Made by a program: the position numbers and the translations under genes. A model generated the notes under the pieces. The model saw only the letters and a program-made list of their open reading frames with translations, was not told where the DNA came from and ran no database searches. From Neelides folsomi (taxonomy: Eukaryota > Arthropoda > Collembola > Neelipleona > Neelidae), in contig JAQGBZ010000073.1 of the NCBI GenBank assembly GCA_034687125.1, positions 1 through 64,000 on the forward strand: a stretch of DNA of 64,000 nt, in the 5' to 3' direction. Shown piece by piece: positions 23,101 to 43,000 of this stretch (within the stretch, counting starts at the first letter, position 1; every line of letters starts with the position of its first letter).

Positions 23101-26100
23101 GACAAAAGGGAAGATGAGAGGCAGATGGGAAGAAGGGAAAAGAATCCATCAGCTCTTCATTGAATATTCAATATTTCCCAATGTTGAGCCCTCCATTTTG
23201 AACCTTTTGGGTCGTCTCAAATAAAGGAAAGTGTAGAGTTTGACGTTGACTTTGCCGCCACTCCTTCCATCATGAAAAGTGTACGAAGTTACATAATGTC
23301 ATTTGAGAGTCAAGAGACGATTCCGAATGCTGAATGTACATAACATCCATAAATACATTCCCAAAGCTTTCCATTGTCTCTTTTAAAGTCTGATGTGTCT
23401 TTGGTTAGCATAGGGCCATTCTCACTTGTTTCTTAAACAGTTTCCTTTCTGCATAAATAAGCCTAAATGGGCCTCTAGCCCATTCCCTATTTCCCTTCCC
23501 AGTGATACCTCGATAAATTGGAGTTAAAAGTATGTTTTAATATATTATTCATAGGGTCGGATGTGTTGTGCCGTGACTCAAACCTTCACCTCCCAACTAC
23601 CATGGTTCAGAGATGTGGATGTATGACGTTGGGAGTCGAAGATTAACAACTCTGCCGTCTTTAGACTTCCTTCGTCAAATTTTAAAAGGCTTTTTATGTT
23701 CCATCCGTTCCTATTTCCTATTGGGTGAATGCAAATAGAGAAAAGGCTTGTAAACACAAGTTGATGTACCTTCCCATTTTGGTGGACCAAACTCGCACTT
23801 CGGACCAGGAATGGAGACCTCAATGGTCTCGTTGGCGTCCGCAGGATTTTCGGAGAAAGACTTCGAGATCTTTTCAGACCTTTGAGCCGAATCTATTCAA
23901 AATAATTTCATTATCATACATTTCTTCTGCTATCAGATTTCTTTTCCCACGTTTTTGAATTGAAATATGGTGTTTTGTACTATAGGAGAAATTGACAAAA
24001 TTTGGATGCAGTTCAAAAGTTTGGTCAATTCGATATAAGAACTCAAAAAACAAAGTGAGTAGAAAAAACGAAAAAAGTTAGATCCATTAGGTTCGTAATA
24101 GAAAATCTTAGAGCTGTCATTCGATTTGCTGTGCTTTCGATTGTGTATAGAATATTTGTAACGTTGTTGTACCATTTATTTGGTATTGGTATTTACTATG
24201 ACTGTATGTACATATTATATATTAAGATACCTATATTTTTATTGTATGTATGTACCTACATATTTTGTATTATATACTGTATGCACATGTGGACCTGTAT
24301 ACTGTACTGTATTAAATGTAAGAAAAAAATCTATGATTGCTAGATTTTCAGAGTTCTTCACCATAAAATAATTATATTTGATTACTCCTGCCATTAGTTT
24401 TAATGGAATTAATTACCTATTTCAATACAATTTCATCTTGCATAAATATACAATAAAAATGAAATAAAATATATTATGGTATAATTTGTTCATGAACATT
24501 ACTTAAAAGTCGCTTACAACTTCAAAGCAATTTCATCACACAGGTATTATTGGTTAAAAAACGTAGATAAAACATTAATTAACAATAAGTATCTAGAGTA
24601 TTATGTCACAGTCTCAACTGTTCGAGCTACGCGATCGTATATTACAATATATTCTAGTTTTAAAAATAATGTTCATGTAATTGTAATTATGTTATACTTA
24701 CCTACATAAATATTTATTTACTGTGGAGTATTGTATCGGTATATGCAACTCTCTTTATAACTTTATATTTAATACTTAATCAAAGTAAACATAATTGAGG
24801 CTCAACTCCTCCATTGTTTTACGTTATTAAGGAACAGGAAGAGGGTTTAATTTCTACTAATTGCATTTTGAAAAAATAATTGGATTCATTCCGACAATGT
24901 AAATCTTTCAACAAATAGTAATTAATGCCATTAATGAAATTATCATACTACATAGTAAGTATTCTACCTATGTAAAATGTAATACTTGAGAATGTAACGT
25001 ACTGTATCAGTAGATATTTAATTATGGTAGACTTTGCAAGTTAAAGCTGAAATAATTTGATGAATAATAGAAAAGTTAATTAATATGTAAGTAAGTACTA
25101 TATATTATGTACTTATGTATACGCAGACCATGCTTGTCAATACCAGTTATAATATTTGACTATTTCACATGAAATATACGTATATCCACTGTGTGTGTAA
25201 TATATTGTTCGTTTAATCCATGCACTTTTTTCATAAAATGCCTAAATCACGATATACATATTTCGTAATTAAATTTAATGACGAAGATTGTTTAAAATCA
25301 TTAAAAATGAATAATTTTGATTTTGATATAATTGAGCAAAGAGCAGTAATAAAGTTTTTAGCTCTTGAAGGTTTGAGAGGAAAGGAGATCCATCGTCGTT
25401 TAGTGGGAGTTTATGGTGAAGAGGCTAATGCCTCTAATGCAAAATGGGCTCAAAGGTATCGAACTGGTCATTTGAGCATTATTGATGGCCATAGAGAAGG
25501 AAAGCCAACAACAGTAATTCTTCCAGGAACTGTTAAATTAGTCGAAGAATTTATAAAAACAAATAAAAAAGTAATAACTAGGGCTATACGAGAAAAATTT
25601 GAAGTTGGGCTACAGATAAAATCATTCATCATCTTGGTTTAAAAAAGGTGAGTGATATTTTATAATTTAACATATTACATTATATAATATAGATTATAAT
25701 CATATAAAATTTTGTTTTTAGGTTAATAGCCAATGGGTCCCGAATGTCTTGTCTGCCGTTCAAAAAAAGAAGAGTTGATGCGTGCAGGGAAAATCTTCAA
25801 ATTCTCGTCAATGCAAATGAAGATGAATTTTTTAAAATTTTAATTACAGGTGATGAGACGTGAATTCTTCATTATGATCCGTTTAGTAAAGCTGAATCCA
25901 AACAATGGAAAAATCTTCGCTCTCCAAGAGCACAACTTCCTAAGAAGGCATTTGGAGGCAAGAAAATAATGGCGACGGTGCTCTGGAACAAAAGGGAAAT
26001 TCTTCTAATTGATTATTTAGAAAATGAAGACGAAGAAAAGAAAGAAACAATTGACCACAAAAAGTATCTCAAGACACTGAACAGTTTACGAGCTGCGATC

Positions 26101-27508
26101 ATTCAAGAGACGGTCCAGATTGGAAAAAGAGCATAACTTTCTCCATGATAATGCTCCTCCGCACAAAGCCCTCCCAGTTAAAGAGAAACTTGCCAAATTT
26201 AAATTTAACAAATTGAATCATCCCCCTAATAGCCCTGATCTTGCACCAAGTGATTATTATTTATATGGCTCTTTAAAACGTGAACTGAGAAGAAAGGTGT
26301 TTAAAAATGATGAGGAAGTAAAAGTAGCGGTGGAAAATTTTTTCGACTTCAAAGACATCTTTTTTTAGAAAGGGCATTAGAGATCTCAAACGACGATGGG
26401 AAGAGTGTATTAGGCTTGATAGATAATATATTACAGGCTAATAAAAATAATTGACTTCAAAAATCAAGCTTAGTTTGATTATTCATAAAAGTGCATGGAT
26501 TAACCGAGCAATATAATATTACATATTTATTTTCCTGTTTCATATATGGGTAAAAAACTTTCTATAAATGTAAAAAATGTATTGAATATGAAAGGAAAAT
26601 ATATGGAAGCTATTTAAGATAATTAATTTTATTTTAATGAATATTGGCTGACGGTTGCGCGAGAGATTTCCTTGCATTTCTTCCCTTTACAAACCAAGGA
26701 TATCCCATATTGAACCCCTATGTTGATTTCCTTCCTTTCCCTATCAGCCATTGTAGGCAAACCAAAAGCATGCTGAAATTCAAAAAACGTCTTAAGCTAA
26801 CTGCTCTTTTCGAACAAATGTCATTTCGGTTCGGTGATACTTAGGATCACCAAATTTTTTGTGAATTTTCTATAGAGGACCTATTATGATAATATTATGT
26901 AGCTAGATTTTTAATGCAAGCAGGGGAGAAATTAAAAATATGCAGCCAACGCATTTTACTTGGCCCTCGTATAAATCAGTATAGTTCATCATATAGGATC
27001 CGAAGCCACAACCTGTTCAAGAAGATGGAATAAATTGCGAGAGAGGAAGGAAGTGAGATGAGAAATTTCTTCGAGATTCCATTGCTTTCTCTCTCAATAA
27101 AGGGAAAGGTAAATTGAGAGAGGATTGGATTGACACGCAAGGAAGACGGAATTTTTAAATTGGAGGATTGTCCAGGGAAAATAAAGTGGAAAGGAGATTG
27201 ACTCCACTCACCCACTGGGAATTGACGACGTAAGAGCTCCGGAGCGGAGAAGAACTCGCGTCTCTCAAATGACAAACGTTAAGAGGAACCGACCGAATCT
27301 GAGCCACTGGTCCAGCCACCAATTCTTTTTTCGGGCTTCTGCATCGAACCGGCTTTTCGGAACTCGGTGGAGGTGGGAAGCAATTGGCGTGTCTTTTTGC
27401 CAGAGGTGACTGGGCTGATGAGATTCTTCGAAGTGGAGCTGATTGCTGAGCCTTCAGCCCTCTTGGGCTACTTCCGCCGTTCACGGACGTCGTGGTGACT
27501 CTGTTCAT
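1043..27508 (-). CDS. SRCIN1 (p140Cap) / KIAA1217 (SKT)-like adaptor protein, 22 coding exons, 3' end outside the window
   Basis: A cytoskeletal and Src-signalling adaptor by family knowledge: vertebrate p140Cap and SKT act at actin-rich junctions and synapses. Exons, 5' to 3': 27508-27212, 22969-22741, 20090-20055, 8187-8120, 7878-7717, 7596-7419, 7298-7100, 6913-6766, 4865-4754, 4673-4458, 4090-3764, 3643-3599, 3061-3008, 2775-2707, 2600-2544, 2348-2223, 2134-1978, 1907-1791, 1709-1602, 1541-1443, 1335-1252, 1169-1043. All junctions use GT-AG and all phases agree, giving 1005 codons without a stop. Domains by residue: low-complexity basic and proline-rich N-terminus 1-310; AIP3/Bud6-like homology about 312-405 (RSSLPVVRT, LVFLQY, LPNEIT, ALFVRSFPRQLTME, YELEDLRDIRDRSVL); proline-rich centre 440-660 with MERQLANLTGLVQKAL; helical coiled-coil part 775-963. 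The last exon ends in phase 0 at a good donor, so more exons follow to the left. The family call rests on the AIP3-like and TGLVQ segments and is strong; the first two exons are less certain. Confidence 0.85.
2223..3643 (-). CDS. SRCIN1-like exons 12-16, five short linker exons
   Basis: Exons 3643-3599, 3061-3008, 2775-2707, 2600-2544 and 2348-2223 (45, 54, 69, 57 and 126 bases). Each has a length divisible by three and both boundaries in phase 1, so any of them could be skipped without breaking the frame. They encode Ser-rich and acidic/Pro-rich linkers such as DDIDKHSSSSSASLQ, VLIRPEMTKAPKFGK, SVSFSDDPPEHGKQHSP and KPTKPAIKSSTLPRMSQ. The last one carries IPSHPYERQFYAATR. Confidence 0.85.
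3764..4090 (-). CDS. SRCIN1-like exon 11, TGLVQ segment
   Basis: The largest exon of the gene (327 bases, acceptor TTATAG, donor GTGATT). It encodes VRMEHMERQLANLTGLVQ and then KALVVGPPGGPPQPPPP. The ME.Q...LTGLVQ.AL pattern is the conserved start of the second homology block of SRCIN1/KIAA1217 proteins. It ends with a Tyr-rich stretch (YVSQRDYIPTRDYR) whose repeated Tyr residues are possible phosphorylation sites (inference). Confidence 0.9.
4458..4865 (-). CDS. SRCIN1-like exons 9 and 10, proline/serine-rich
   Basis: Exons 4865-4754 (acceptor TTTCCAG, donor GTAATG) and 4673-4458 (acceptor CTCTAG, donor GTACTT). They encode NYSYPVGATLPRGGPP and then a Ser/Pro-rich stretch with SAPPPKPQRQYSSMSLTK and SPRSQERSSSFPPSSTYS. 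PPPKPQR resembles an SH3-binding site, which fits a Src/actin adaptor (inference). Phases 0 to 1 to 1 agree. Confidence 0.85.
6766..7596 (-). CDS. SRCIN1-like exons 6-8: AIP3/Bud6-like domain
   Basis: Exons 7596-7419, 7298-7100 and 6913-6766 encode the diagnostic part of the protein. In order: RGGKCRSSLPVVRTPSKT, LGLVFLQYRSETKRALLPNE, SLDTVKALFVRSFPRQLTME, IYIHDGSKDMFYELEDLR and DIRDRSVLRLFEP. This order and these residues match the AIP3-like region of vertebrate SRCIN1/KIAA1217 as I know the family. The junction AG|A between the second and third exon completes the conserved Arg of LRDIRD. The third exon ends with an acidic and His-rich tail (YFSEPEFDSDYQHQHIH). Donors are GTAAGA, GTGAGA and GTATGT. 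Confidence 0.9.
7717..8187 (-). CDS. SRCIN1-like exons 4 and 5
   Basis: Two exons: 8187-8120 (acceptor CTTGCAG, donor GTGAGT, 22 codons, residues about 189-210) and 7878-7717 (acceptor GTTTAG, donor GTAGAA, exactly 54 codons, residues 211-264). The second encodes a Tyr/Pro/Ser-rich stretch with PSYFSYQRKVPPNYS and YSEPYQHLHRANE. No known domain is visible. They link the basic N-terminus to the AIP3-like domain. Confidence 0.8.
8188..13040. other. Left part of the third SRCIN1-like intron
   Basis: Mostly A+T-rich. A G+C-richer block at about 9500-10330 has overlapping short open frames in several frames, none with recognisable protein features. It could be a promoter or 5' exon region, but nothing decides this. 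The rest (10.3-13.0 kb) shows only low-complexity A+T sequence. Confidence 0.5.
12638..12658. repeat. Perfect 21-bp palindrome
   Basis: ATGTTTGTA and its reverse complement flank AAT without a mismatch. It lies about 500 bases upstream of the first glycine-rich gene. It could be a protein-binding site or chance in A+T-rich DNA. Confidence 0.4.
13065..13073 (+). promoter_or_regulatory. TATA-like box of the 13.2 kb glycine-rich gene
   Basis: TTAAATAGG lies about 94 bases upstream of the ATG at 13159. A TATA at this place would start transcription near 13096-13105, giving a 5' leader of about 55-60 bases. Confidence 0.4.
13159..14117 (+). CDS. Secreted glycine-rich small protein, 3 exons
   Basis: Exons 13159-13294, 13708-13741 and 13916-14117 join to a 123-residue precursor. 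The start is the ATG at 13159 in AAAATGTTT. The first about 26 residues (MFAKNGFFFSLPLAALLLSS and on to RSG) form a clear signal peptide. The mature part is rich in Gly, Ala, Pro and Tyr, with GAGGYAGA and PGGYGFGGYGVGD, and ends in AAYAG. There are no Cys residues after the signal. The 34-base middle exon is short but both neighbours fit it in phase (donors GTACAC and GTAAGT; acceptors TTTAG and TTCAG). Such composition fits a cuticle, egg-coat or cement-type structural protein or a glycine-rich peptide; the function is unknown. AATAAA signals follow at 14267 and 14319. The gene sits on the opposite strand inside a long intron of the SRCIN1-like gene. Confidence 0.82.
14267..14324 (+). promoter_or_regulatory. 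Two polyadenylation signals
   Basis: AATAAA at 14267-14272 and again at 14319-14324, 150 and 202 bases after the stop codon of the glycine-rich gene. Confidence 0.65.
14340..16330. other. Spacer between the two glycine-rich genes
   Basis: A+T-rich with no supported gene. Short open frames at about 15349-15567 (plus) and 15901-16083 (minus) have no recognisable features and no matching splice sites. Confidence 0.5.
16340..16376 (+). promoter_or_regulatory. Core promoter (TATA and initiator) of the GHK-repeat gene
   Basis: TATTTAAAG at 16340-16348 is followed by the initiator-like TTCAGTCT, with its A at 16372. The spacing of about 32 bases is typical of arthropod TATA/Inr promoters. The predicted leader before the ATG at 16429 is about 57 bases. 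Confidence 0.6.
16429..17764 (+). CDS. Secreted glycine-rich protein with seven YGHKG repeats, 4 exons
   Basis: Exons 16429-16446, 16892-16947, 17384-17653 and 17743-17764 give 121 residues. The first exon carries only six codons (MAKVAL); the second completes a signal peptide (ISMLLVLFACIHLSVGG). The third encodes seven copies of YGHKGYG joined by runs of five to eight glycines, and the fourth ends YGGYGG then stop. Splice sites are GTAAGT, GTAAGA and GTAGGT with good acceptors. Almost every residue of the mature chain is Gly, Tyr, His or Lys, so it is basic and without Cys. Gly/Tyr-rich secreted proteins of this type act in cuticle or as antimicrobial peptides in other ecdysozoans; which applies here is not known. 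An AATAAA follows at 17875. The G+C-rich repeat also keeps other frames open on both strands; those are shadows. Repeat number may vary between individuals. Confidence 0.85.
17395..17653 (+). repeat. Coding tandem repeat (Gly-rich, YGHKG units)
   Basis: Seven imperfect units of 33-45 bases built on GGA/GGT/GGC triplets with the core TATGG.CACAAAGGATA. Unit length differs by the number of Gly codons, a sign of slippage by whole triplets. Confidence 0.85.
17875..17880 (+). promoter_or_regulatory. Polyadenylation signal of the GHK-repeat gene
   Basis: AATAAA 111 bases after the stop codon. Confidence 0.65.
17881..20054. other. Right part of the third SRCIN1-like intron
   Basis: No exon or RNA gene seen. 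Short open frames (for example 18716-18901 and 19463-19663) lack any recognisable feature. Confidence 0.5.
20055..20090 (-). CDS. 36-base microexon of the SRCIN1-like gene
   Basis: A strong acceptor (CTTTTACAG) and donor (GTAAGT) enclose 36 bases that keep phase 1 on both sides. Joined to its neighbours it adds DEEMGDVRRKAS and makes the next codon Gly. Skipping it would keep the frame, so it may be alternatively spliced. Confidence 0.7.
20091..22740. other. Second SRCIN1-like intron
   Basis: A G+C-richer patch at about 20280-20480 lies just upstream of the microexon and could be regulatory. The remainder is A+T-rich without supported genes. Confidence 0.45.
22486..22551 (+). repeat. Short imperfect tandem repeat
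   Basis: Four degenerate copies of a 15-18-base unit close to TTTGGGTATACATG. Probably a simple minisatellite; no function seen. Confidence 0.6.
22741..22969 (-). CDS. Second coding exon of the SRCIN1-like gene
   Basis: The acceptor is pyrimidine-rich and ends in TTTAG (22970); the donor is GTGAGC at 22740. The exon enters in phase 0 and leaves in phase 1. It encodes a basic, Gln/His-rich segment containing HHQQQLLQMRTKAAERSASQ. An internal ATG at 22879 (MNFSHERPS) could serve as the start if transcription begins close by and the 27.2-27.5 kb exon is not used. Confidence 0.7.
25205..25229 (+). repeat. Left terminal inverted repeat of the mariner copy
   Basis: Begins TTGTTCG and runs to the T tract, next to the TATA flank. 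23 of 25 bases match the right repeat. Confidence 0.88.
25307..26426 (+). pseudogene. Broken mariner transposase (DD34D type)
   Basis: The intact element would encode the cut-and-paste transposase. The N-terminal DNA-binding part is visible (IIEQRAVIKFLALEGLRGKE), as are all three catalytic regions: GDET, LHDNAPPHK and SPDLAPSDYY. There are 34 residues between the second and third Asp, so this is a DD34D mariner. Defects: a frame change near 25612; a 74-base stretch with GTGAGT...TTTAG ends (25648-25721) between KK and VNSQWVP; a TGA at 25861-25863 where Trp is expected after GDET; a frame change near 26110; another near 26365, after which the tail RRWEECIRL reads in a new frame. An ATG at 25220 in the terminal repeat is unlikely to be the true start; 25307 begins the conserved part. 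No functional protein is expected. Confidence 0.9.
26487..26511 (-). repeat. Right terminal inverted repeat of the mariner copy
   Basis: The reverse complement begins TTGCTCG and matches the left repeat at 23 of 25 bases; TATA flanks it. Confidence 0.88.
27212..27508 (-). CDS. First coding exon of the SRCIN1-like gene (candidate)
   Basis: ATG at 27508 is preceded directly by an in-frame TGA, so this is the natural start of the frame. The exon encodes 99 residues rich in Ser, Pro and Arg (MNRVTTTSVNGG, CFPPPPSSEKPVRC) and ends in phase 0 at GTGAGT (27211). Its G+C content is clearly above the flanks. Joined to the phase-0 acceptor at 22970 it gives an uninterrupted frame into the rest of the gene. 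The assignment is inference from phase, strand and order; it could instead be a separate short gene. A transcript would settle it. Confidence 0.55.
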
Positions 27509-29102: not shown

Positions 29103-29245
29103 TCACGACGACACGTCCCAAATCTCTGCGAGGAAAGGCGGCAGTTTCCTATTCTTCAATTTGAGGGAGAAGCACATTTCTGAATTGATATTCCCCAGTG
29201 TCCTAAGTTCCGTGAGGACTCCGAGGAGTTTTGCGAAATTGACTC
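29103..29245 (-). CDS. EcR: EcR last coding exon: helices 10 to 12
   Basis: Encodes [20 protein letters not shown], then [20 protein letters not shown] and DVSS before the TGA at 29105-29103. The dimer helix and the AF-2 coactivator helix ([10 protein letters not shown]) are complete. Confidence 0.95.
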
Positions 29246-32200
29246 CTGTGAAAATAAGAAATTGAGAATCATGGTTCAAAAACATCCGTTCGTGTGCCAA
29301 GCACAAGACATGACAAGGCACATGCATTTAAAATGAAATATGGAAATTGTCGTGAGACAAAATACGTAATCAAATATTGATTTCTCGATTGGTTTACCTG
29401 GTCTAACAGGGTGAAGGTACTCAACGTATGCTCGCAAGGCCTCCAAGTAAATCTCTTGAATTTTTTCAACTTTCCTCGGTTCCTGCAAGCTTGGTCGCTC
29501 TGTAAATACAAAGATTTGCATGTTAACAATGTTCTTCAAATTCAAATCACTCTTTCACTTTACATTTCACCTAATGAATTGAACTAAAATGATAAAATTA
29601 ACATTGAAATCCATTCTTTTATTTAAATTTTAGAGAAAGTGAGAGATTTTGGTATATGTAAATTTTATATAAGTATACAAAAGTTCAGCTTGAATGGCCT
29701 TATTATGTTAATTTTAAAATCAATTTACCGGAAAAAATGACGATGGCAGTAAGTAAAGCATATTCTGCATTGTCGACTTTCATTGTACACATGTGGCGAC
29801 AAAAGTTGAAAAGAGGATCTGCAGAGTCACCGACTCCAGCCATATTGTAATTCTCTCGAGTATAAGGATGATTGTTTGCAAATACAATTGTGTCTGTTTG
29901 AAAATCATAGCGGCGGGCTGTACGCAACATCATCACTTCAGAGGAACAGGCCTAGAATTAAAACATTTCAAAAACTATTATATTTCTTTATAAATATATT
30001 GAATTGCTAATTTTATTTATTCATTAAGATTGTTTCTCTCCCAAGAAACTATTGGCCGGAGTTGTAAGGCCACTGAGACATTTGACCCTACGAGGCCATT
30101 TCCAAACCTTGAGTAAAGTGATTTGATCTTCTCTTAGGAGAGTGTCAAATCCTGGGAGTCTTTTTGAAAACTCGACTGTGAGTTGAACGGTTAGAATCGT
30201 CATTTCAGTGATGTGTTTGAACTTCGCTTCACTATCGTGAATGTTGACGGAGGATTCCTTGAAGGATAAAAAATAGAAAATGGATAAAATTCTTTACCTT
30301 GAGAAGTGTAATTTGGTCTTCCCGCTCGAGTTTATCGAAGCCAGGTAAGCGTTTGGAGAACTCTACGATTAGCTGCACTGTCAGTATTGTCATCTCTGTG
30401 ATGTGACGAAACCGAACTTCACTCGCATCTTCCCCTTCCCCAGGGAGACCCTTTAAGCCGAATCAAAAAGAGACAGAAAATGTATCAAGAAGGAATATTT
30501 GTTGACACGGTTTGAAAGAAATGATAACAATTTGAGAGAAAAAAGGCCCGACGACAAGTTTCTTATCATTCGAACCCTTATCATTGTAGTAGTATGTGTT
30601 TGTGTTAATAAGAAACAATTATTTAAAAATAACTTATAATAAAACAACTAAGTGTGTAATTGAAATTCAGAGAATTATTTGACTGAATATGGAAATGTAT
30701 AAATAGAAATGAGGAAGAAGAAAAAAGAAATAATGAAGGAGAAAGATTTGCAAAGAGCACAGAAGTCTTTAATTGATAGTCATGGTACACACACATATAG
30801 TTATGTGTAAGTACATAATATAGTTTGAAAGAGTTTCATTTAAAGTGTTTTGGTTCCTTACGGTTAGCCTCTTGAGATCTTCTTCGGAGGGCTGCTCAAA
30901 CTCGTCTTGGAAATAAACGAGCCTATTTATGAGCTCCTCTTGTTCGACACTCAAGGAACGACCAGAGCGGATTTTTCCTCCTCCGTTTAAACCACCAGTT
31001 AATCTTTCTTCCTGAAATTATACAGAGATTTAACCCTCCGCTCATGTAGAGAAATACAAGAACTTTTCTCAAAGTCAATGTGTATACAATTCCCCTTACT
31101 TTAATTTCTATTTCTTTCGGGGTGGGTGACTGGGTTGTGGAATTAGGTTTATCCTTGTCCTTCTGAGCCTTCTTTGCTTCTCTTTTAACTGCACATTGGT
31201 ATTCAGGTACGACGCCTGGATAAGGAAAAATAAAGTTTTGTACATTAAACATTCGGATCTTTATTCTTCAAGGTGCCTGGTTGGCAATTTAAATGTTTTA
31301 ATGGTTGAAGTAATTACATTCGGGCCGCATTCCGACGGTGAGGCACTTTTTAAGACGGCACTCCTGACACTTCCGCCTCATGTACATGTCGATTTCACAA
31401 TTATTGCCATATTTGCATTGGTAGACAGCATTCTTTGTGATGCTCCGCCGAAAGAAACCTTTGAAAAAGAAAAAGAATCGAGGATTATTTCCAAAGGTCA
31501 AATTTGATCAAACAAATGGAGTAGAAATTAAAAGTATACATCATTAAATTCTATTTGCCCTCTCTATACTTAGAAAATGAGTGTAAATATATCTTGTGTC
31601 ATCTCACCTTTACACCCTTCACATGTTAGGGCATTGTAGTGATATCCAGATGCTCGATCACCGCATACTAAACATAACTCTTCTTGTTGCCTAGGAACAG
31701 GGCCCTTTTTCTTCTTCCCTTCACAGCTATCAGCACCAAATCCTCCAGGGGGAGACAAGTCTTCTCTGCCTACGCAAGAAAAACATTTAGAATTAATACA
31801 CTTTTTCAGACAAGGCATTATATATCACAGAATTATATTTATCCTCAACACTCCAATAATTAGTTTGGCTATATACCATGTATGTCATCAACCTGCCCTT
31901 GTAATCGAGAGGCAATTCAAAGTTTATTGCGAAATTGCTAAAGGAGGAAACTCAATACAAATTAATCAAAAGTTTCCCCTTGCTTTCATTTCAGCCTACT
32001 CAAATCCAGAGGAGGTGAATAGGAATTATAACGTGGAAAAGTTCAAAGATCGTCCCTCTCTGGGAAGTTAATTTGGACAATTGCTTTCTCAAAAGACGAA
32101 ATTACTATTTACTTTCAACTCCTTCCATTACAACTTGTAATCATGAGATTTGAGGCTCAACACGTTTCAAGTAGAACCTCTAGTTTCTCAAGCCCAAATG

Positions 32201-35200
32201 ACGAATATTTATGTTGCCTCAAAATAATTGAATCAACAATGTTCATTAGTTGATAACAAGAGTTTGAAATTTTCCATTTAAACTTTCCTAGTTAAAAATC
32301 TTAGATACCTCCAGAGTTTCATACAAAGAGAAACTTTTATAAAAAATATAAATTACATCTTTCTCAAGAAGACTTATTTTCGAACTCCAAATTAAAAAAG
32401 TTATTGCACTATTACCCTTCAAAATTCTGAATGTCATAAACATCTTCAGCTAAACTTAACATGATAAAATACCATTTAATTGGTTTGCTTCGTGTATTAT
32501 GTAAGATCTTTTTCAATTAATTTGCAAAGAGATCTAACACACGTATTTTATAAGAAAACTAAGAAAATCATGATATTACATATGATATAAGTATAAGGTA
32601 AAACTTAATATTGTTGGTAGATAGTTAACTAAGCATTTGTATAATTACTTATTAAGTAATTTTCATACGTACAAGTCCTTTTATGAGATTCAAAAGAAAA
32701 TTTATTTAATTAAAATTAACAAGGCTTTAATCAAGATGGTAATTATAAAGTGAAAAGATGTCAGGTTGTGTTTACTCTTTCCAGGAAATCATGAAGTAAT
32801 TTGAAATTAATTTATCTATGACGGGGAGACGATTTCAATTTGATGAAAGAGACTTCTAAGTATGTATTCAACTTCCCAATTAATATAGCTAACGAATTAT
32901 ATTACGAGATGAAATCCCTTGTGTGAATTTCATAGAAAACAAGTTAATAAGGATTAAAAAGATATGTCTAGAATCGAAACGTTAATTAATTGAAAGAGAC
33001 TTCATCAATAAACCACCACATGCTCAGCAACGGCATAACGATCGCTGTTTTACTTTATGGTGTTTATACAAGATTGAAATAGATACCTAATTTAAATTTT
33101 ATTTACATAACAAAACCCATCTTATAAATCTCAACTTAACAGTTGGTGACACCATAAAAATGAAGCCAATGTTTATCAATCTTTCAGTCAATTCAATCCG
33201 CATTGAGGTTTATTTAACCTCCAGCTCTCTATAGTATTGCTCCTGGCATAATGAACGATTAATAAAGTAATAAAAATATCGAAACAAAATCCTCACTATA
33301 ATTACAATTACAACATGGATGAATCACCCAAGAACACTTGAGCAATTTAAAATCTTTTTAAATACCAATGTCTAACCATACATTATTTAAGTAGGTATGT
33401 TTGCGTATCGTAACCTGGAAATGTTTGGCATATAATGCTGATGCAATGACACTCGATTGAGGATGACATGAAAAGTGATGCCATTTAAAACACGGTAAGG
33501 AATTGACATGCTTATTGGATGTGATGAGCAATAGGTGATGTCAGTTTGGGAAACAATAGAGATGTCTGCAATGCCCATAGCGGGTTGTAAAAGTGATGCA
33601 GGAACAAGGTGATTCTCTACGTGGGACTGACTACACCAATATTTAAAAACGTGCCTATTGGTTCCCCCCACCTTCGTCCTGAACTCGCCTTGGTATGAGT
33701 GACGTATGGCAAGTGAGGGGATTCTCTATTGATTTTTACCGGCCCTTGCCCTCTTGAAAAATACTTTTAGCGTAATCGTTGTTAAGTCATGACAATCGGG
33801 GTGATTGGGACGAAATCGGTTCGGAATGAGGGGTTTTCCTGCAGAATGAGCTCTTTCCTATTCCTCCCATGTTTCAAGTGTTCGATGGAGTCTCGGGTAG
33901 TTGCTCTGAGGATTCATACTCTTGTTGGGTCAATAACTCAGGTGCATTTCAAGGTTAGCGTGTCAGTGTCCTCAGCAAAAAAACAAACTACAAAGGGGGC
34001 AAAGCCTTTCCCTTTCAGCTATTTAAGTGCGAACCCCCCTCCTCATAAACCCCGAGGCTCTCTTCCCTACCTGTCCTCCCTCACGCTTCCTCCCATATAA
34101 ATGCTCAATATGCCCATACATTCTAGGTACAGGATGAGTCTTCTTCGTGTTGAAATCACCAAAGCCCGACGAAACTACGTAGTAAAGTAAACCCCTTCTA
34201 TTACAGATATATCCTCGGCATACCTACCCACTTCAGAGCTCCATTCCCTTCATGCCTCAGCCCCTTTTCCCAGCCATCTTCTTTCAGCTTGGAATGTTTA
34301 TGCTAAAATATTCGGAAACACTTTTCCATTACTCATTTCCACCAGATCTCCACTACTGCTCCTCATTCAATAATTAATCGTGTATGGAAGAAAGTGGCAG
34401 CCCTCGTTCCTCCACTACTCCAAATACTCAACATCAACATGGAGGCTAAATAATTCATAATCCTCATATTAACTCCAATTCCAAAATACTCTTTAAAGCC
34501 ACTATTAAAATCCTCCGCTTTCAGGTTTTAGGATTAAAAGATGAAAATCGTGGAAGCAGACGGTGAACTCATGGGATCTTTATATATTATGAGTATGCCA
34601 CGTGGAAAAGGTGGGAAGAAGGTGTGTGAGCTTATTATGAAAATCGATATGCTTGGTTTTAACTTTTGATTAGATTCATCTGAAGAGTGATAGGACAAGA
34701 CCGCAACCTATCACTCCACCTCACTGACATGTTAATTTTAAGTCCAATATTTTGAGCAATTGAACAAAACCACGAGTGTCAGTGCCCGATCGGCATCCCT
34801 TTAATGAAGTTTTGATCAAACATATTTCTAAGAAATATTTGTTGTCACATTTTAACAAAATGAAACCAAAAAGTGTCTAAAACAGAAACATAATTTTATA
34901 ATGGATATTCGAGGAAATGCCATATAAGATTGTACGCAGTATGATTCTTAAAAGGAAATGAAACTTGAATGTTTCGAGAGCATTTAAATCAATAAATTCT
35001 TATGAAAAATTCCACGAAACCTCTCTGAGACTCTTTAAATTATTAAAATACCAGTCAATGTATGTATTATTGAAGAATCAATCTAAATTTCTCCATATAC
35101 TCACCCATGTTAAATGACAGCACTCATTACTTAATGCCTACACTTAATGTATAGAATTCGCCAATGAGGTTTAAGAATTAAAAGATTAATGACTTTCTAC

Positions 35201-38200
35201 ATAGTTGATTTTCCTCTGGAATGCATTCTCATTATAGTTAAGATTAACTTAATACCTGAAGAGCTATCAGAAAATGAAGACACGGCCAGGGAGTTGTTTC
35301 TACCCACCGTCCTTCTCCCTGCCGCCCCGCCATTCGTCCCATTCATCCCGTTGATGAATATTTGATTCGGCGAGATGCTGTTGTTGTTGCTCACAGAGCT
35401 CCCCGTACTTCCATTGCTATAGACATGGTTGAGGTCGAGGTCCCAAAGGTCCAAGTCCACATCACCAACTTCACTCTCACGGTTCATCGCGTTGTTCACG
35501 ACATCGGCAATGATGAGGTGGGTCGTATGGGGCCCATGGTGGGCTGTGGCCGATGATGAGGAAACCTCTGAAGACCCGTCGTCACCCATCATGGAAGATA
35601 GGAGCTGAGGAGCCACGGCCACCGCCAGATTAGCTCAGAAGACCTCGTGGGTCACAATGGGGTGAACTGATATGAACCAACTCGGGCTTGTCAACCGTCG
35701 TGGAGGGAAAAACTCGGGGAATTGATAGACGGCGCAGAGGGAAGTGCGGGACGACAACCGCTTCGGTAAACAAGAGAACATTGACTGGAACTCTCTCAAG
35801 TTTAAGGGCAAACCCCTCGTCTTGCATTTGCCTGGTTGCCTAACGATTCCATGAGGTTGGGATGGAGTTTGCTGGCTCAGGACTCCCTTTTTGCCCAGAG
35901 CCTTCTTTCTCCCTCCGTCTTTCCCCTTCCCCCGAAAAGAAGCACTTTTTTCCTATATGGAATCCTGTCCGAGCTCCCCAACCACCCACCTGTATATTTT
36001 TACATCACACGGAGAAGAGCCCGAGGAACACGCAAGCAAATGGGTCTACGCCCCCCTTGGGGCTCTCGTCCTCAGCTCAATCATATACCAACTTCCCTTT
36101 CGGTAACAGACTTTTGTAACACCTCAACCCCTTTTCTCAGCTCTTGACTCAAATGTGAGACGAGCAAGCAAATATGCTACCTACCTACTTGATAATAAGA
36201 AGAATATTGACTATATCTCCTCTATAAGACAACTCTTCCAGAGCTCTCCTTCACAGCTCTTGCGAGCGGAAGGGAAAAGAATACAAGAGAAGCTACAGAG
36301 CGGAAAGAACCTCACTGTGATGAGCCCTTCCTTCTCGATTCTTGAAATCGAAAGTCTTTTTTTGCACTGTCTAATTTAGTTAAATAATGTGTATGTGTGT
36401 GAGTATAATAGGGAATTCCTTTCTTCCTTCCTATTCAATACTCCCCTTCATTCTCTCCCCAATCTTCCATTTGGCATTGCTTCATATGGCAAGTTGAGAA
36501 TGAAGTCTCCAAAATCCTTCTTTAACTCTTTTACAAATTACTCATTCTCAATAGTTGGGGAATGCGCACCTTCCTTTACTTTATTTCACAACCCACTCCA
36601 TTTTTACTAAATACTTACATTTCAGCTTTAAATGAGATTAGGTATGAGATTATATGAACAAAAAGTCGACCGCTCTATTTTTTGCTCTACCTGAATAGGG
36701 AGCCACATATGAATGTTATCCTATTGCTTAAACTTAAATTGTGAGTCAGTAAAGAGAAACGCCATATAACCTCACCATTTTCTAGAAATACTTTAAATAA
36801 CTTCCAACTTGACAAATAAAAAACACAATATGAAATAACTTAAAATTTTCCTTCAATGAGGATTTCCTTCATTTTACCTTATTGAATAATAGAAAAAATT
36901 AAGAAAAACCAACCAAAAATTAATTAAAGAGATATAAGCCGCTCATATAGTCGATGACAATTTACCTTAAAATTCATTTATTAAAGTAGATAAATTACCC
37001 ATATGCGTACATTGCCTGCGCTTGATATTCAAACTTGTCATAAACTAAAGCCCTGATAAATAACAAGTAGGAGAAGAGATTACATAAATAGATATACCAA
37101 TGCTATCAATTGAGGACAAAATCCTCAAATATGTTGAAGCTAGTAAAATCAAACATAAAAATAAGCTTATTTTGCTATTTCACCTTAATAGATGAATCAA
37201 GAGCCCTATCAGCTTATTACATAGGGTCGAGGTTGAAGAACGATAGAAGGAAACATTGCGAAATGATGAAGAGTCTCTGAGTCAAATCGAAATGATTATA
37301 TAAAAATGCTAAACAAACTGGGTTCTAATTAATTTGATTGATGCACTATATGCTATTCAAATATTCTCAATAGTGATGCGTCGTGTATTGCAGCTATAAA
37401 AATGGTTTCGGTAAATGGCCGTAAACATTTATGTTGATATTTAAGTTCATTGCAAATAGCGAGTTAATAAAAATGGACAATATTTAACTTATTTTTATTT
37501 ACTCGGACAAATACCACAGAATACATATTATGTTTTTATTAAAAGCTTGTCAGTGATAAAAAGATCATTCATTAAGTTATATCTTTTGCTAATTCCAATG
37601 AACTTGATTGAATAGAATACATTTTAATTGGAAATAATCATCGTAAAAATAAAATTAAAGTAAGTATATCGCCCAGCTGAAATACTTTTCATCTAATAAA
37701 ACTCTCTAAGCATTAATATATTTAGAGATTAAATTAATAGTTTGTTCGGCAATTTACTAAAGGCGGAAAATTTCAATAGTTGCGGAACGGCAAATTCGCA
37801 AGTTTATACTTATTATGCTATGGTTGAAACTTTTTGGAAATAACGAGTCTGCGGCCTTCTCTAGCGGCTCGAGGAATCAACTATTCCAACATTTAAACGT
37901 TCTGTGGAGCGAATGTAAGACTAGGTGGCTTTAACTCACAGACTCTCGTTGAGTCTCACATTAAAGTTAACATTAACACAACATAATATTTCGTGATCCT
38001 TAGTTAGCGTCTCACCATAATGTATTTACTCTTAAGCTAACCATTTTACTAAATTATCAGCGTGAAATATTCTACAATAGATAGGGGAATGATCAAAGTA
38101 AGTTTACTTGCGTGTTAAAATGAATGATATGCCTGAAATAATATTAGAAAGCTACATAAATATCATTCATTATTATAATGTCTATGCCCAACATTGAGAA

Positions 38201-40069
38201 ACATTTTCCATAAGTCTACCAGAATCTTAATTGAGTCTTTAGGCCACATTTATTATATTTTAATCCTGTTCTATCCTTCTAATGCTCTGAGAAACTTGAA
38301 TTCATAAACTACTAACTTAATCTTATTCCAAAAGGATAATGTGAAATTTTCAATAGGATTTCACTTATTGTTAGACCAATGCTGAAATAAAAACTTGAAG
38401 CATAATAAAATAAGAAATTGTTTAACTTTTAGCCCTTAAAATTTAGTTAATAAGAGTTATAATTTGAAAATAAAGTTTTCCTTAAAAATAAAAAGTCGCC
38501 AAAATTGGGATAAAGGTCAAACCTAAACCTTAAATGGGGGCAAAAAATGGTTTATAGAATAAAATGTGTGTATCCGGAGAACATTAGCCTTCTCAAGGAG
38601 GAAAACCTTGTTTTAACAACACATAAAAAGCATAACCTTGCAAAAGTTCATACATGTGTATCATCATACGATTTCGCTTTTGGTGTTGGAGGTATTTAAC
38701 TTTACATAAAGTATTCATGGCATTCATTCAATTTAATGTTGCATTATGGCCGCATGAGTCTGTAACTTTTGTGCTTATATTAAATATAACATAATCTAAT
38801 GAGAAGGATGAGAGCTCTGTTCTCCTATATGTATTCTACAACAAGCTCTGCAGTCGGAGTGAAATAGTCTTGCAAACATTGAGAATTAACCTCACATTTA
38901 TTATATCGTTGAGAGTTTGGGAGCAATAAATGAATGACTGAAGGTTAGCGAACTAAAAACGAATTGTCTGATTAGATTATATGATCTCTTACGAAGCCAA
39001 CCGCGTAACCGGGCTGCAATCATAATGTTTTTAACTCCCCCCCCCCCCCCACTTTAATCTTTTTGGATCGAAATGCTCAACGCAGGAGCTACTCTCCACT
39101 CAACTTTAAGAATCCGAGATGATTAAATGCGATGATTCGAGGGAGTTTAAGCCAACTATTTTTATCAAAGTTTTAAGTGTCGTTACGAAATAAATCCTTT
39201 CTTCCATACAGAATGATAAAGATGAGAGAAATTGAGAAAATCAAACACTCAACACATATACATAAATGTAATGTGCTATCTGTAACATGTGGACTTGTCT
39301 TTGGAAATATGAATAAAATATTATTTGCAGGCAGGGTAAAATGAAAATTATGACCAATAAACAAAAATGTAAATGTTTAGTGCAAAAGTCGACAATTGAA
39401 AATAAAATAAAAATCTTAAGTGTATCAAAATAATCATGTGCATGAGCTCAATCCTTTCATATATGGTATAAAAAGTAATATGTCTTGTATAAGTATATTG
39501 TAAAAATTCGTATGTAGCATACTTTTGTCTTTTAGTACTAGTGAAAATTTTATATTTTATAGTCAATTTGCCTTGAGATATATTTTACTTCATAAAGATC
39601 GAAATTTGAAGATTCACAATAAAAGAAACATCATCACTTTTCAATTTTATAAATTACGTCATAAATAAACGTAATTAAGTATGATTTCACACATTCTTAA
39701 AAATTATAGCCAAACTAGTAATTACAATGTATCATAATTGTATTATTCTGCTATTATGTATTATCAATAATTCAAATAACAGAACTTACTAATGCGAGGT
39801 GATGGACTATAAGGGTCATCGAGACTTCCGGGAGGTGAGTTAAACGTAAAACCCTGAGAATTGAAGTGACCCGATGGAGGTGAGGAAGTTGCGTCCCATT
39901 CGTTGGAGGATTCATGGCGAATTCGTTTGGTCGGAGGAAGTCCCCCAAATGAATCATTTCCATTTGAGTTCCCATTTACACTTATGTGAGGCGAAAGTTC
40001 ACTTTTGATTGTCACTACTGAATTTTCTAGTGGAAGCATTAAAGCGGAGGGATTTTTCGTCCGAAACAT
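29103..40069 (-). CDS. EcR: Ecdysone receptor (nuclear receptor NR1H1), complete coding region with alternative exons
   Basis: Ligand-activated transcription factor for 20-hydroxyecdysone; with its partner RXR/ultraspiracle it controls moulting and reproduction genes in the nucleus. Two alternative N-terminal exons (40079-39790 or 35592-35256) join the common exons 31769-31608, 31458-31318, 31215-31100, 31011-30862, then one of 30450-30298 or 30257-30108, then 29951-29729, 29499-29398 and 29245-29103. With the 30450-30298 exon this gives 489 residues (upstream N-terminus) or 508 (downstream N-terminus). In the 489-residue form: A/B domain 1-120; two C4 zinc fingers about 126-190; hinge to about 250; ligand-binding domain to the end, closing with the AF-2 helix FLAEIWDV. 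All introns are GT-AG and all phases fit. There is no long F domain, as is usual in crustaceans. Conservation makes the identification certain. Confidence 0.97.
29398..29499 (-). CDS. EcR: EcR exon: ligand-binding domain, helix 9
   Basis: Encodes [20 protein letters not shown] and [14 protein letters not shown], the conserved region of helices 8-9 that contributes to the RXR dimer face. Acceptor TTACAG, donor GTAAAC; phase 1 to phase 1. Confidence 0.95.
29729..29951 (-). CDS. EcR: EcR exon: ligand-binding domain, helices 5 to 8
   Basis: Encodes [20 protein letters not shown] and later [38 protein letters not shown] and TAIVIFS. RTARRYD holds the Arg that contacts the hormone's A ring in other EcRs. 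Acceptor TTCTAG, donor GTAAAT. Confidence 0.95.
30108..30257 (-). CDS. EcR: EcR alternative ligand-binding exon b (tandem duplicate of exon a)
   Basis: 50 codons in phase 0 (acceptor CTTCAAG, donor GTTTGG). It encodes [20 protein letters not shown], then [20 protein letters not shown] and [10 protein letters not shown]. Over the last 40 codons it matches exon a at 34 residues; 24 of the codon differences are synonymous and 6 change the residue. The first 10 residues and the Ile to Thr change in helix 3 differ. Only 40 bases separate it from exon a, too short for a normal intron, so the two should be mutually exclusive. The donor is weak. Being open, in phase and under protein-level constraint, it is most likely a used exon rather than a relic. 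Confidence 0.82.
30298..30450 (-). CDS. EcR: EcR alternative ligand-binding exon a
   Basis: 51 codons in phase 0 (acceptor TTAAAG, donor GTAAAG). It encodes [20 protein letters not shown] followed by [15 protein letters not shown] and [10 protein letters not shown]: the helix 2 loop, helix 3 and the start of helix 4/5. The Thr residues in [10 protein letters not shown] are the positions that contact ecdysteroid in insect EcR structures (family knowledge). This version matches the usual arthropod sequence best. Confidence 0.93.
30862..31011 (-). CDS. EcR: EcR exon: start of the ligand-binding domain (helix 1)
   Basis: Fifty codons in phase 0 at both ends. [20 protein letters not shown] is the characteristic helix 1 of EcR. 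The Gly-rich lead ([15 protein letters not shown]) belongs to the hinge. It must splice to one of the two alternative exons that follow. Confidence 0.93.
31100..31215 (-). CDS. EcR: EcR exon: hinge
   Basis: Encodes [20 protein letters not shown] with the following [10 protein letters not shown]. The basic stretch right after the zinc fingers is the C-terminal extension and probable nuclear localisation signal. It ends in phase 0 at GTAAGG. Confidence 0.93.
31318..31458 (-). CDS. EcR: EcR exon: second zinc finger
   Basis: Encodes [20 protein letters not shown] and the rest of the second finger (C-x5-C-x9-C-x2-C), then [12 protein letters not shown]. It covers the dimer and recognition-helix end of the DNA-binding domain. 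It splits a Cys codon at the donor GTAATT. Confidence 0.95.
31608..31769 (-). CDS. EcR: EcR exon: first zinc finger
   Basis: Encodes [20 protein letters not shown], then the first C4 zinc finger with Cys at CLVC and CEGC spaced C-x2-C-x13-C-x2-C. The P-box EGCKG reads DNA half-sites of the AGGTCA class. The donor GTGAGA cuts within the Gly codon after EGCK, a position shared by many nuclear receptors. Confidence 0.95.
31770..35255. other. EcR intron upstream of the DNA-binding exons
   Basis: No exon recognised. A G+C-richer segment at about 33.4-34.2 kb has open frames on both strands without recognisable features. Confidence 0.5.
35256..35592 (-). CDS. EcR: EcR alternative N-terminal exon 2 (A/B domain)
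   Basis: The ATG at 35592 follows an in-frame TGA at 35637-35635, so the frame starts here. It encodes 112 residues plus one base and ends at the donor GTATTA in phase 1. Joined to the common exon it reads [11 protein letters not shown], the usual EcR junction. The sequence is Ser/Asn-rich with an acidic motif ([15 protein letters not shown]) resembling a transactivation segment. A second promoter upstream of it, at about 35.6-36.2 kb, is likely but not proved. Confidence 0.85.
35593..39789. other. EcR region upstream of the second A/B exon
   Basis: About 35.6-36.2 kb is relatively G+C-rich and is the expected 5' leader and promoter area of the 35592 start. 36.6-39.8 kb is A+T-rich with no supported gene; it contains a run of 14 C residues at 39037-39050. 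Confidence 0.5.
39037..39050 (+). repeat. Homopolymer tract of 14 C
   Basis: Uninterrupted C run in A+T-rich intron sequence; the length is likely unreliable in assembly. Confidence 0.8.
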
Positions 40070-40079
40070 GTTACCGATT
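39790..40079 (-). CDS. EcR: EcR alternative N-terminal exon 1 (A/B domain)
   Basis: The exon has an acceptor (TTTTCAG), ten untranslated bases and an ATG at 40069, so at least one non-coding exon lies further upstream. It encodes 93 residues plus the first base of the next codon. [11 protein letters not shown] looks like the conserved sumoylation/activation motif (IKxE) of EcR A/B domains, and [15 protein letters not shown] is also typical. The end is Ser/Pro-rich ([17 protein letters not shown]). The donor is GTAAGT. Phase 1 fits the common exon at 31769, giving SREDLSPP. Confidence 0.9.
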
Positions 40080-43000
40080 CTGAAAATAAACAAAAAAACA
40101 ATAGATTAGACACTTTAAATCTTTTCATATTTATAGGATTAAATAAATGGAATCAGTACAAATATTGCTTTAATAAAAACTAAAAACATAAATATTTGAC
40201 TTCCAAAGCTTTATTTAACATAATTTGGGTCTACTGTAAAATTGAACATGAAATATATTTTATAAATATCTTATTTGGTTCAAGATAAAAGTAACATGAT
40301 CAAATTACCAATCCGATCTAGAAACCCACTCGTAACAGTAGTCTCTCTATATTTAATACAATTATGATATTTATCCTCAAAATACAAGGCGGACCAATTG
40401 ATGAGAAATGCTAGCGATGGTGGAAATAAGAGCTCAACTCTTCTTCCTTCCAACCAACAATGAAATGGCATTTGGATTTCAAGAAAAGGAGCATGACTGA
40501 TAAAACTATCTCATCAGACTCATCACATATCATCCCTCCTCATTTTCACATACAGACCCTCAATGCCCTGTCTCTGGGCGAAGTATGGGAAAGATATAGA
40601 ATGACCTCTATAATAGGAATAATGTTTTTGTCCCTGTCTGTTCCTATCAGAATTTTCTCCTTCCAAACGACCAGTCTCTTTTTTAAATGTTTTGGACTAT
40701 CGTACGAGCCTTGAAACCCGAAATCCAATAAACTTATAATAACGCTCCCAATTAAAATTTTATTTATCTAATGAAAAAAATGCAGGGCAGACTTTTGGAA
40801 TTAAATGACAATGGTCTATCTCTCGTCGGTTGATACGAACACTTAATTTAGAATTGATAACTTATCCTTCCGGCCTTCATTAAAACGACCTCGATTGAAA
40901 ACAACAATTTGAATGATATTTAACTAGGTATCTGTCAAAAGGTTTTAGTTACTTAAAGTTAATAAAATTTACAATCTCATAAACAATAGCCAAGAACAAA
41001 TTAGATTATATTTGAACGTTGCATTTGAGGACATTTAGGGGGAAAAACTCGACTGCCAACTCGCTTTTTGATATTCCTAAAAATATTTATTCATTCCAAG
41101 ATTAGGAGATTAAAAGCGACCATTTTCAATATTTTTTTTATTTAGCCTCCTGTCGATGACATTTCAAAACTTTGCGCGATATCGGCAATTTAAAATAATT
41201 CAAAGAGATGTAAAATAACTTCATGTTTCTTTCATTAGGAATAATTTGAGACCATATAATCTATTGTATCTACCATTTTTTTTCAATTTCCATAAAATCA
41301 AGACATTCGGCTCCTATATTATATCCACCTCCTGGAATAGATTACAGATACGAAGAGAGATTTTGAAAGGAAATGAGAAAACCGATGGTGGAAAAGAGAT
41401 TAACTTCCTTGAGTCTCCCCCGAATTAGAAATCGTCACATCAGTGTATCTACTATGCAAATACACAACTCTCACTATTACCACTCCGAGCCACCGAGATC
41501 TCTATCTTCTCCCATGAAATATACGTAATTTGGTTGAAGAGCCAAACAGCCCTTTGGATCATTTTGAGTCATGTCCATTTATCCTGTCTCCTACTTAAAT
41601 TCACTTTTTATAAGTCATTCATGATCCTCCCCTTATTTCCGAATCTGCCTCGTGAAAAGGAAAATACGAAAAAAAGACGCCAGTCAGTCATTTAGAATTA
41701 TTTTTGGTTACACCGTGGAGACATTTAAATTCTTCACCCTGAAGGCAAAAAAATCCAAGTGAGATAAATAGGTGGAATTTATTCTACTTATTCTACGCAT
41801 CCAAATGTGTGGATCTGAAGTAATTTAGTACTCCTAAATTACCTTATAACTCTACTCAACATATCTCAAGTATACCTAGACCTAGACGAAGTCAATCAAC
41901 ACATACAGAGGAAAATTGCAATGAATGAGTCGCATACATGAGCAATACGTAGAAAATATAATGTTAAAGTATAGATAATACAAGATTACTCACTCATATA
42001 ATATTCATGGAGTGTGCACAATCATATTCAATTTAACAAATATACCCTGCTGGTTATATTCGCTGCATACTGCATTATTAATAAATACATAGTACATTTA
42101 CAACCATCATGGTTCAAAATATTCGCAACAAAGTCTAAAAAAATATTACATGATTACATACACATATTCCAATGTAAAATTCCCATTGTGCGTTCAAGCA
42201 ACCTTCCTGTTGTCTCATTTTGCTCATCCACATTGTAGTAATTGAATGGAATGTATAAACTCATGTGCATAGAGAGCTTAAGGTTAGAAACAAAGGAATC
42301 CATGATCATCAAAAGAGATCACGAATAATGCTATATTTATATAGGGCCTTCTTGAGCACAAAGATATAATATAAATTCGTAATTAAATTTCGTAAATTAA
42401 TATTATGCTCACTCCCTGTGAAATAAGGTTGGAGCAAAAAAAAGTTTCAATGAGAGTGAATGTGCTAAAAGGGTCGTTAAAACGGGAGAGGCTGTGTGTA
42501 ATTTGAGCAAAAAAGGCTTAAGTAAAGGTCTCTCTCAAATCCGGCAATCCGCCCATGTTTGCTCCCTCATTGTCTGCGGCCGACAGTGCTCTTACATATG
42601 TTGGGCAAGGAGATAAGGAAGCCTTTACTGTCCTTCATCATCAAGGTTAGCCAACACAGGAAGATCGACACAAGGTTAATTTATTAGATAGAATGTTGCC
42701 ATATCAGGATTATGAACCATGCAAGTCAATCCAATTTGCATTGGATGTGGAAGGAGTGTCGGTGCTCTCCACATGGATAGAATGGGGAATTCTCTCGCGA
42801 GAGAGATGCGAAGAGGGAAGAAGGAGCAAGATTTACTCGTTGATTTGGAGGAAAAGGGTCTGCCTTCAACGCGTAATGGCGAATCCTAATCGGTTCCCCA
42901 TCTCCTAAGAGGGCTAATGGAATTAACATACATAGGCCTGTATGTATACATTGGGCATAGTGAGCTTAGGACTCCAGCCAAGCTCTCATCGGAAAGAGCA

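Follow-up and report, generated by a model that had tools for sequence, protein, structure and literature searches.

Splice variants of the ecdysone receptor (EcR) have been described from decapod crustaceans in the A/B region, the hinge and the ligand-binding domain (a spiny lobster study, PMC6599367). In Eriocheir sinensis, the mitten crab, transcript EcR-4, unlike EcR-1 to EcR-3, is without the 150-bp exon 7 and has in its place a 150-bp 'retained intron', both within the ligand domain, an event that its authors named exon skipping plus intron retention rather than mutually exclusive exons (PMC5636884). For Macrobrachium nipponense MnEcR the same paper quotes a ligand-domain substitution of 49 residues, and in its tabulated species the E region varies in 10 of 11 crustaceans, the ten all being Malacostraca, with A/B variation only in Daphnia magna and in each of 20 insects. 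In Callinectes sapidus, the blue crab, the pocket of EcR1 is described as more hydrophilic than that of EcR2 (PMC4388526). A survey of the copepod Tigriopus japonicus gives one EcR and, in the part used, isoforms for four other receptors only (PMC4247118).

The Eriocheir, Macrobrachium and Callinectes cases bear out a remark in a preliminary description of the DNA analysed here, that the ligand domain of decapod EcR has splice variants. Eriocheir alternates between two coding segments of equal length, and these are best read, in our view and not that of the authors, as mutually exclusive exons. Among the 12 best-ranked of 305 open-licence matches no paper was found that combined crustaceans, EcR and mutually exclusive exons; the three open-licence papers matching every term of another search were, by title, not on EcR, and EcR peptides searched as text strings were not found in papers.

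An EcR gene with a tandem pair of ligand-domain exons

The window, that is, the whole stretch of 64,000 nucleotides that was analysed, belongs to an assembly of 75,104,828 bases in 840 contigs and carries on its minus strand a gene that, by domain content and closest matches, is the ecdysone receptor (NR1H1). Splice borders were located by exact strings, and the exons and frames are read directly from the DNA. In transcript order the features are:

39764-40105, minus strand: open frame, candidate second N-terminal exon, presumably B-type, by resemblance only
35197-35634, minus strand: open frame without a Pfam match, candidate N-terminal exon, presumably EcR-A-type, again by resemblance only
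31608-31769, minus strand: first DNA-binding-domain exon, with the acceptor at its upper border chosen by visual inspection
31318-31458, minus strand: second DNA-binding-domain exon
31100-31215, minus strand: hinge exon
30862-31011, minus strand: constant exon with helix 1, preceding the pair
30451-30861, minus strand: intron upstream of exon A, 411 bp
30450-30298, minus strand: exon A, 153 bp, 51 residues; helix 2-3 loop, helix 3 and start of helix 4
30258-30297, minus strand: gap between A and B, 40 bp, GT...AG
30257-30108, minus strand: exon B, 150 bp, 50 residues; alternative version of exon A
29952-30107, minus strand: intron downstream of exon B, 156 bp, donor GTTTGG
29729-29951, minus strand: constant exon after the pair (ACSSEVMM...AIVIFS)
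29398-29499, minus strand: constant exon (ERPSLQEP...VRPG)
29103-29245, minus strand: last coding stretch with the activation helix, stop at 29103

Exons A and B stand in tandem, both in phase 0 and each with its own GT-AG sites. When coordinates and frames were recounted, the two adjacent phase-0 exons and the 40-base gap of the preliminary description proved exact, and the differences it had listed between the copies were confirmed: a changed helix 2 loop, an Ile-to-Thr exchange in helix 3 and two residues before REDQ. With either A or B spliced in, the frame stays open from the second DNA-binding exon to the C-terminal end. Both spliced versions score above the Pfam cut-offs for PF00105 (zinc finger, represented in the scored versions by its second exon only) and PF00104 (hormone-receptor ligand domain). 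Seven solved sequences match the ligand domain at E 1e-60 or better, all of them named EcR; with exon B the domain matches 2nxx, 4ozt and 1z5x, which we take to be insect EcR chains, at E 3e-108 to 9e-106. The peptide ITEMTILT, with the ligand-contact residues Ile, Thr and Thr at +0, +4 and +7, is present in both exons.

A search of the 75.1-Mb assembly, with six candidates scored per query, returned A and B as each other's sole matches at E <1e-10 (1e-16 and 7e-17), followed by other nuclear receptors at E 3e-4 or weaker; no third copy of the exon was found. EcR relatives were sought in genome- and viral-contig collections and none was confirmed. Allelic collapse or an assembly duplicate was ruled out as the origin of the pair, the copies being in tandem and differing at 42 of 120 aligned bases.

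Several other features lie around the gene. A mir-8/mir-141/mir-200 precursor (52347-52414, minus strand; Rfam RF00241, 62 bits against a gathering score of 47) is found on the same strand as EcR, ~12 kb upstream of the most distal candidate EcR coding exon. About 3 kb beyond the EcR end there is a mariner-type transposase remnant in several frames (~25217-26368, plus strand), one piece of which matches PF01359 (2e-10) and another, weakly and below cut-off, PF13358. An open frame at 7096-7632 (minus strand) may belong to a gene for an actin-interacting scaffold: its match to AIP3 (PF03915) reaches 29.1 bits, below the cut-off of 31.6. Elsewhere in the assembly, a mitochondrial piece (L009, contig C742, 15157 bp, code 5) has cox1 among genes that are consecutive on one strand, presumably in the row nad2, cox1, cox2, atp6. 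This row is the usual arthropod order, from which many copepods depart, and the placement among copepods implied in the preliminary description draws no support from the data.

The pair compared with decapod EcR isoforms

The Eriocheir exon and exon B have the same length, 150 bp, whereas exon A has 153 bp. For Callinectes, translation of the published isoform primers (PMC4388526) gave ISDDDSDA for EcR1 and DGEDTSDM for EcR2, and the two primers for all forms gave IVFGNTL and IYLDALR, which are like the window's constant exons. In a register just before helix 3, the score of the EcR2 peptide was 26 against A (shuffle fraction 0.0005) and -3 against B. The EcR1 peptide in the same register scored 16 to B, a value reached by 17% of shuffles, and 9 to A; its best placement outside this register gave 11 to A. 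Taken jointly, the two peptides scored 42 as A-like and B-like, and 6 when swapped. The Callinectes isoforms thus differ just before helix 3, EcR2 being clearly A-like and EcR1 possibly, if weakly, B-like; the more hydrophilic pocket of EcR1 goes in the same direction as the change from Ile to Thr.

The alternative exons from which decapods make their 'E-region' isoforms are most likely the counterpart of the window's pair. That the two pairs descend from a common ancestor is likely, as is a breadth of the pair beyond decapods. Decapod genomes are far larger than 75 Mb; the present genome is probably too small for a decapod, and the pair may be ancient. In its widest form, which we put forward tentatively and with slightly less than even confidence, the reading would make the two-version EcR pocket an ancestral crustacean trait that arose by one duplication before decapods and this lineage split, and was lost or never gained in insects.

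An alternative that we regard as unlikely, if worth serious attention, is that the pair is mutually exclusive in use but was duplicated separately from the decapod one. A symmetrical exon is easy to duplicate, which counts for a second origin. It would also suit the 20 insects and Daphnia magna, which are without E-region variation in the tabulated data (PMC5636884), and Tigriopus, for which the survey, in the part used, reports no EcR isoforms (PMC4247118); moreover, shared ancestry of B is argued from an eight-residue peptide that 17% of shuffles equal. However, two separate duplications would have had to yield a 150-bp exon at the matching place in the mitten crab, A-like and B-like peptides in matching register in the blue crab and a hydrophilic EcR1 pocket in the latter species (PMC4388526). 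Common descent of the two pairs remains our preferred reading.

Both exons are constrained as protein

Over the last 40 aligned codons, A and B differ silently in 24 and by replacement in 6, with 10 identical codons and no stop, the same figures as in the earlier count. Identity is 86% over 42 residues. The differing bases fall 7, 6 and 29 at codon positions 1, 2 and 3, and 11 of the 13 shared four-fold sites differ. The preliminary description had also raised dN/dS for the pair: dN is 0.15, while silent sites are saturated (pS ~1), beyond the reach of simple correction.

Constraint is seen directly in these counts. When 42 changes were placed at random on exon A (20,000 draws), 24.7 residues were changed on average and never fewer than 17; when bases were re-drawn at the same 42 sites, replacements averaged 14.4 and fell to six or fewer in 0 of 20,000 draws. 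Since the observed 6 replacements compare with a random minimum of 17, both exons appear to be maintained as protein, and the claim of protein-level selection on both copies made earlier from the codon counts holds up against the random mean of 24.7. Had only A been under constraint, B would presumably have decayed by this degree of divergence.

Each copy is also derived at sites where the other is not, which is what an old pair would show. We compared them with five EcR chains, which we take to be from whitefly, chewing louse, flour beetle and, for the remaining two, a single moth. At the helix-3 site B has Thr, while A and all five chains shown have Ile; at the site before the helix 3-4 turn B again has Thr, against Lys in A and in five of five chains. 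A third site, Glu in A and Leu in B, is Leu in two chains, Ile in one and Ser in the two moth chains. Four other nuclear-receptor exons of the same genome are also non-polar at the Ile/Thr position (Val in two, Ile and Leu in one each), which makes a polar residue unusual at this position.

Of the two exons, A more closely resembles the solved EcRs and the peptide from the EcR2 primer of the crab, and its slightly better match (200 bits to 1z5x, compared with 191 for B) could be expected if B were a fading duplicate or a rare alternative and the normal receptor always carried A. We consider this improbable: exon B has no stop, its splice sites are intact and it is under strong constraint. Its donor, GTTTGG, was considered as a weak donor and rejected, the type being common in this genome (GTTT in 5 of 15 placed chaperonin introns).

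The 40-bp gap and predicted exclusive use

Intron lengths were estimated from exon tables of the chaperonin, kinesin and C4 zinc-finger families. Exon pairs were kept when consecutive and with profile positions at most 10 apart or overlapping by at most 30; other pairs and single-match genes were dropped. The 61 estimates, one of which is an EcR intron, have a median of 124 bp and a minimum of 53, with none below 50, and the 40-bp gap is shorter than all 61 in this survey of three gene families, in which the kinesin table could have passed over introns of very small size inside its matches.

A border-finding script, whose range excludes introns of less than 31 bp, placed chaperonin introns in 15 of 16 exon pairs at lengths of 74-217 bp, a set that overlaps with the 61; in six of the 15 there was a lower-scoring second choice, of at least 83 bp. 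Among these placed introns, the five GTTT donors (e.g. GAG followed by GTTTGA) are on contigs C253, C294, C24 and C59, seemingly a large share for a donor type that departs from GTRAG. Introns hidden inside chaperonin matches occurred in 2 of 10 matches, with a best length of 75 bp in one and of 132 or 138 bp in the other; for the first, a 30-bp cut also leaves the frame open, but with residues unlike chaperonin. The other placed EcR introns, at 88-411 bp, are longer than the gap in seven of seven cases.

In a 40-bp intron, a branch point at the usual acceptor distance would lie ~13-23 bases from the donor. Given a gap shorter than every intron estimated or placed and a branch point so crowded, steric exclusion is the simplest cause of exclusivity and, on these length measurements, a likely one. 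The earlier statement that 40 bases are too short for normal splicing is consistent with every length obtained. All four combinations (A, B, both, neither) keep the reading frame, so the frame itself imposes no exclusivity. Pairing of RNA between the flanking introns and the gap, in three pairs, was no better than in shuffles keeping base content only, giving no sign of a dedicated RNA switch.

Non-exclusive use, with both exons joined (a doubled helix 3) or both skipped, is very improbable even though the frame would permit it, as A-to-B joining needs a 40-bp intron, below all estimated or placed, and a domain with helix 3 doubled or missing should not fold as a ligand domain.

What exon choice would alter in the hormone pocket

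Docking to whitefly EcR has Ile227, Thr231 and Thr234 bonding ligands (PMC8782374). The spacing of these residues is that of ITEMTILT, which is identical in A and B. The Ile-to-Thr site, presumably HvEcR position 350, would be four residues past the contact threonine, one helix turn away and on the same face. In the diamondback moth, docked ponasterone A contacts Glu307, Arg382, Ala397 and Asn503, and docked tebufenozide contacts Tyr407, Thr342 and Asn503 (PMC9920912). Thr342 should be the first ligand-facing Thr of ITEMTILT, the same in both exons. Glu307, Arg382, Ala397 and Asn503 presumably fall outside the two exons.

As the helix-3 contact residues are identical in A and B, exon choice would spare the direct contacts; it would act on the second shell, on the loop between helices 2 and 3 and on the turn between helices 3 and 4. 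Altered affinity or ligand preference is plausible; we infer rather than observe a ligand preference, because both versions have the same helix-3 residues at the positions that bond ligands in docking. Of the two effects suggested in the preliminary description, that on partner binding is the less likely, since the RXR-dimer surface, as we take it, lies outside this exon.

Discussion

The pair is real and maintained and, as its structure predicts, very probably mutually exclusive in use. With good confidence we propose that an old tandem duplication of a symmetrical (phase 0-0) EcR exon has been kept as a mutually exclusive exon pair, and the mutually exclusive reading proposed at the outset is also the best one here: the introns estimated or placed are all longer than 40 bp, both copies look constrained and decapods have alternatives at the matching place. 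Each transcript would then carry A or B, A-to-B joining being prevented mainly by a 40-bp space too short for the spliceosome, and two receptors would result. The DNA-binding domain, the surface for dimer formation and the activation helix would be common to both. The differences would lie in the loop between helices 2 and 3, in a single Ile-to-Thr exchange in helix 3, a turn past the ligand-contacting threonines, and at two positions where helix 3 turns into helix 4. The likely effect would be on the pocket mouth and pocket polarity, i.e. on ligand affinity or ecdysteroid choice, and not on recognition of DNA or RXR.

Alternative EcR ligand-domain exons are known in principle from decapods, and the present pair is of value for a clear genomic view of them, for a likely breadth beyond decapods and for a two-pocket idea that is open to test. 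In this compact gene both exons can be seen together, and the arrangement invites a reinterpretation of crab EcR 'intron retention' as exon choice. Two pockets from one gene could explain tissue- or moult-stage-specific responses to one steroid family in crustaceans, and would be relevant where EcR-directed insecticides are tested for toxicity. If the ancestral-trait reading is true, moulting animals of this branch run two ecdysteroid receptors with different ligand responses from one gene.

The window's EcR has the domain order, the helix-3 ligand-contact residues and the activation helix in common with insect EcR, whereas variation in insects concerns the A/B region only (20 of 20 tabulated) and a second helix-3 exon is unreported there in the part of the source used (PMC5636884). 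Decapods have an alternative ligand-domain stretch of 49-50 residues, as in the window's pair, an apparent likeness of extent and place. Mammalian alpha-tropomyosin is an example of mutually exclusive exons governed by steric exclusion. Exon pairs of this kind are homologous, in tandem and separated by a space too short for an intron, and the two EcR exons are likewise so arranged, with exclusion in their case predicted from sequence alone.
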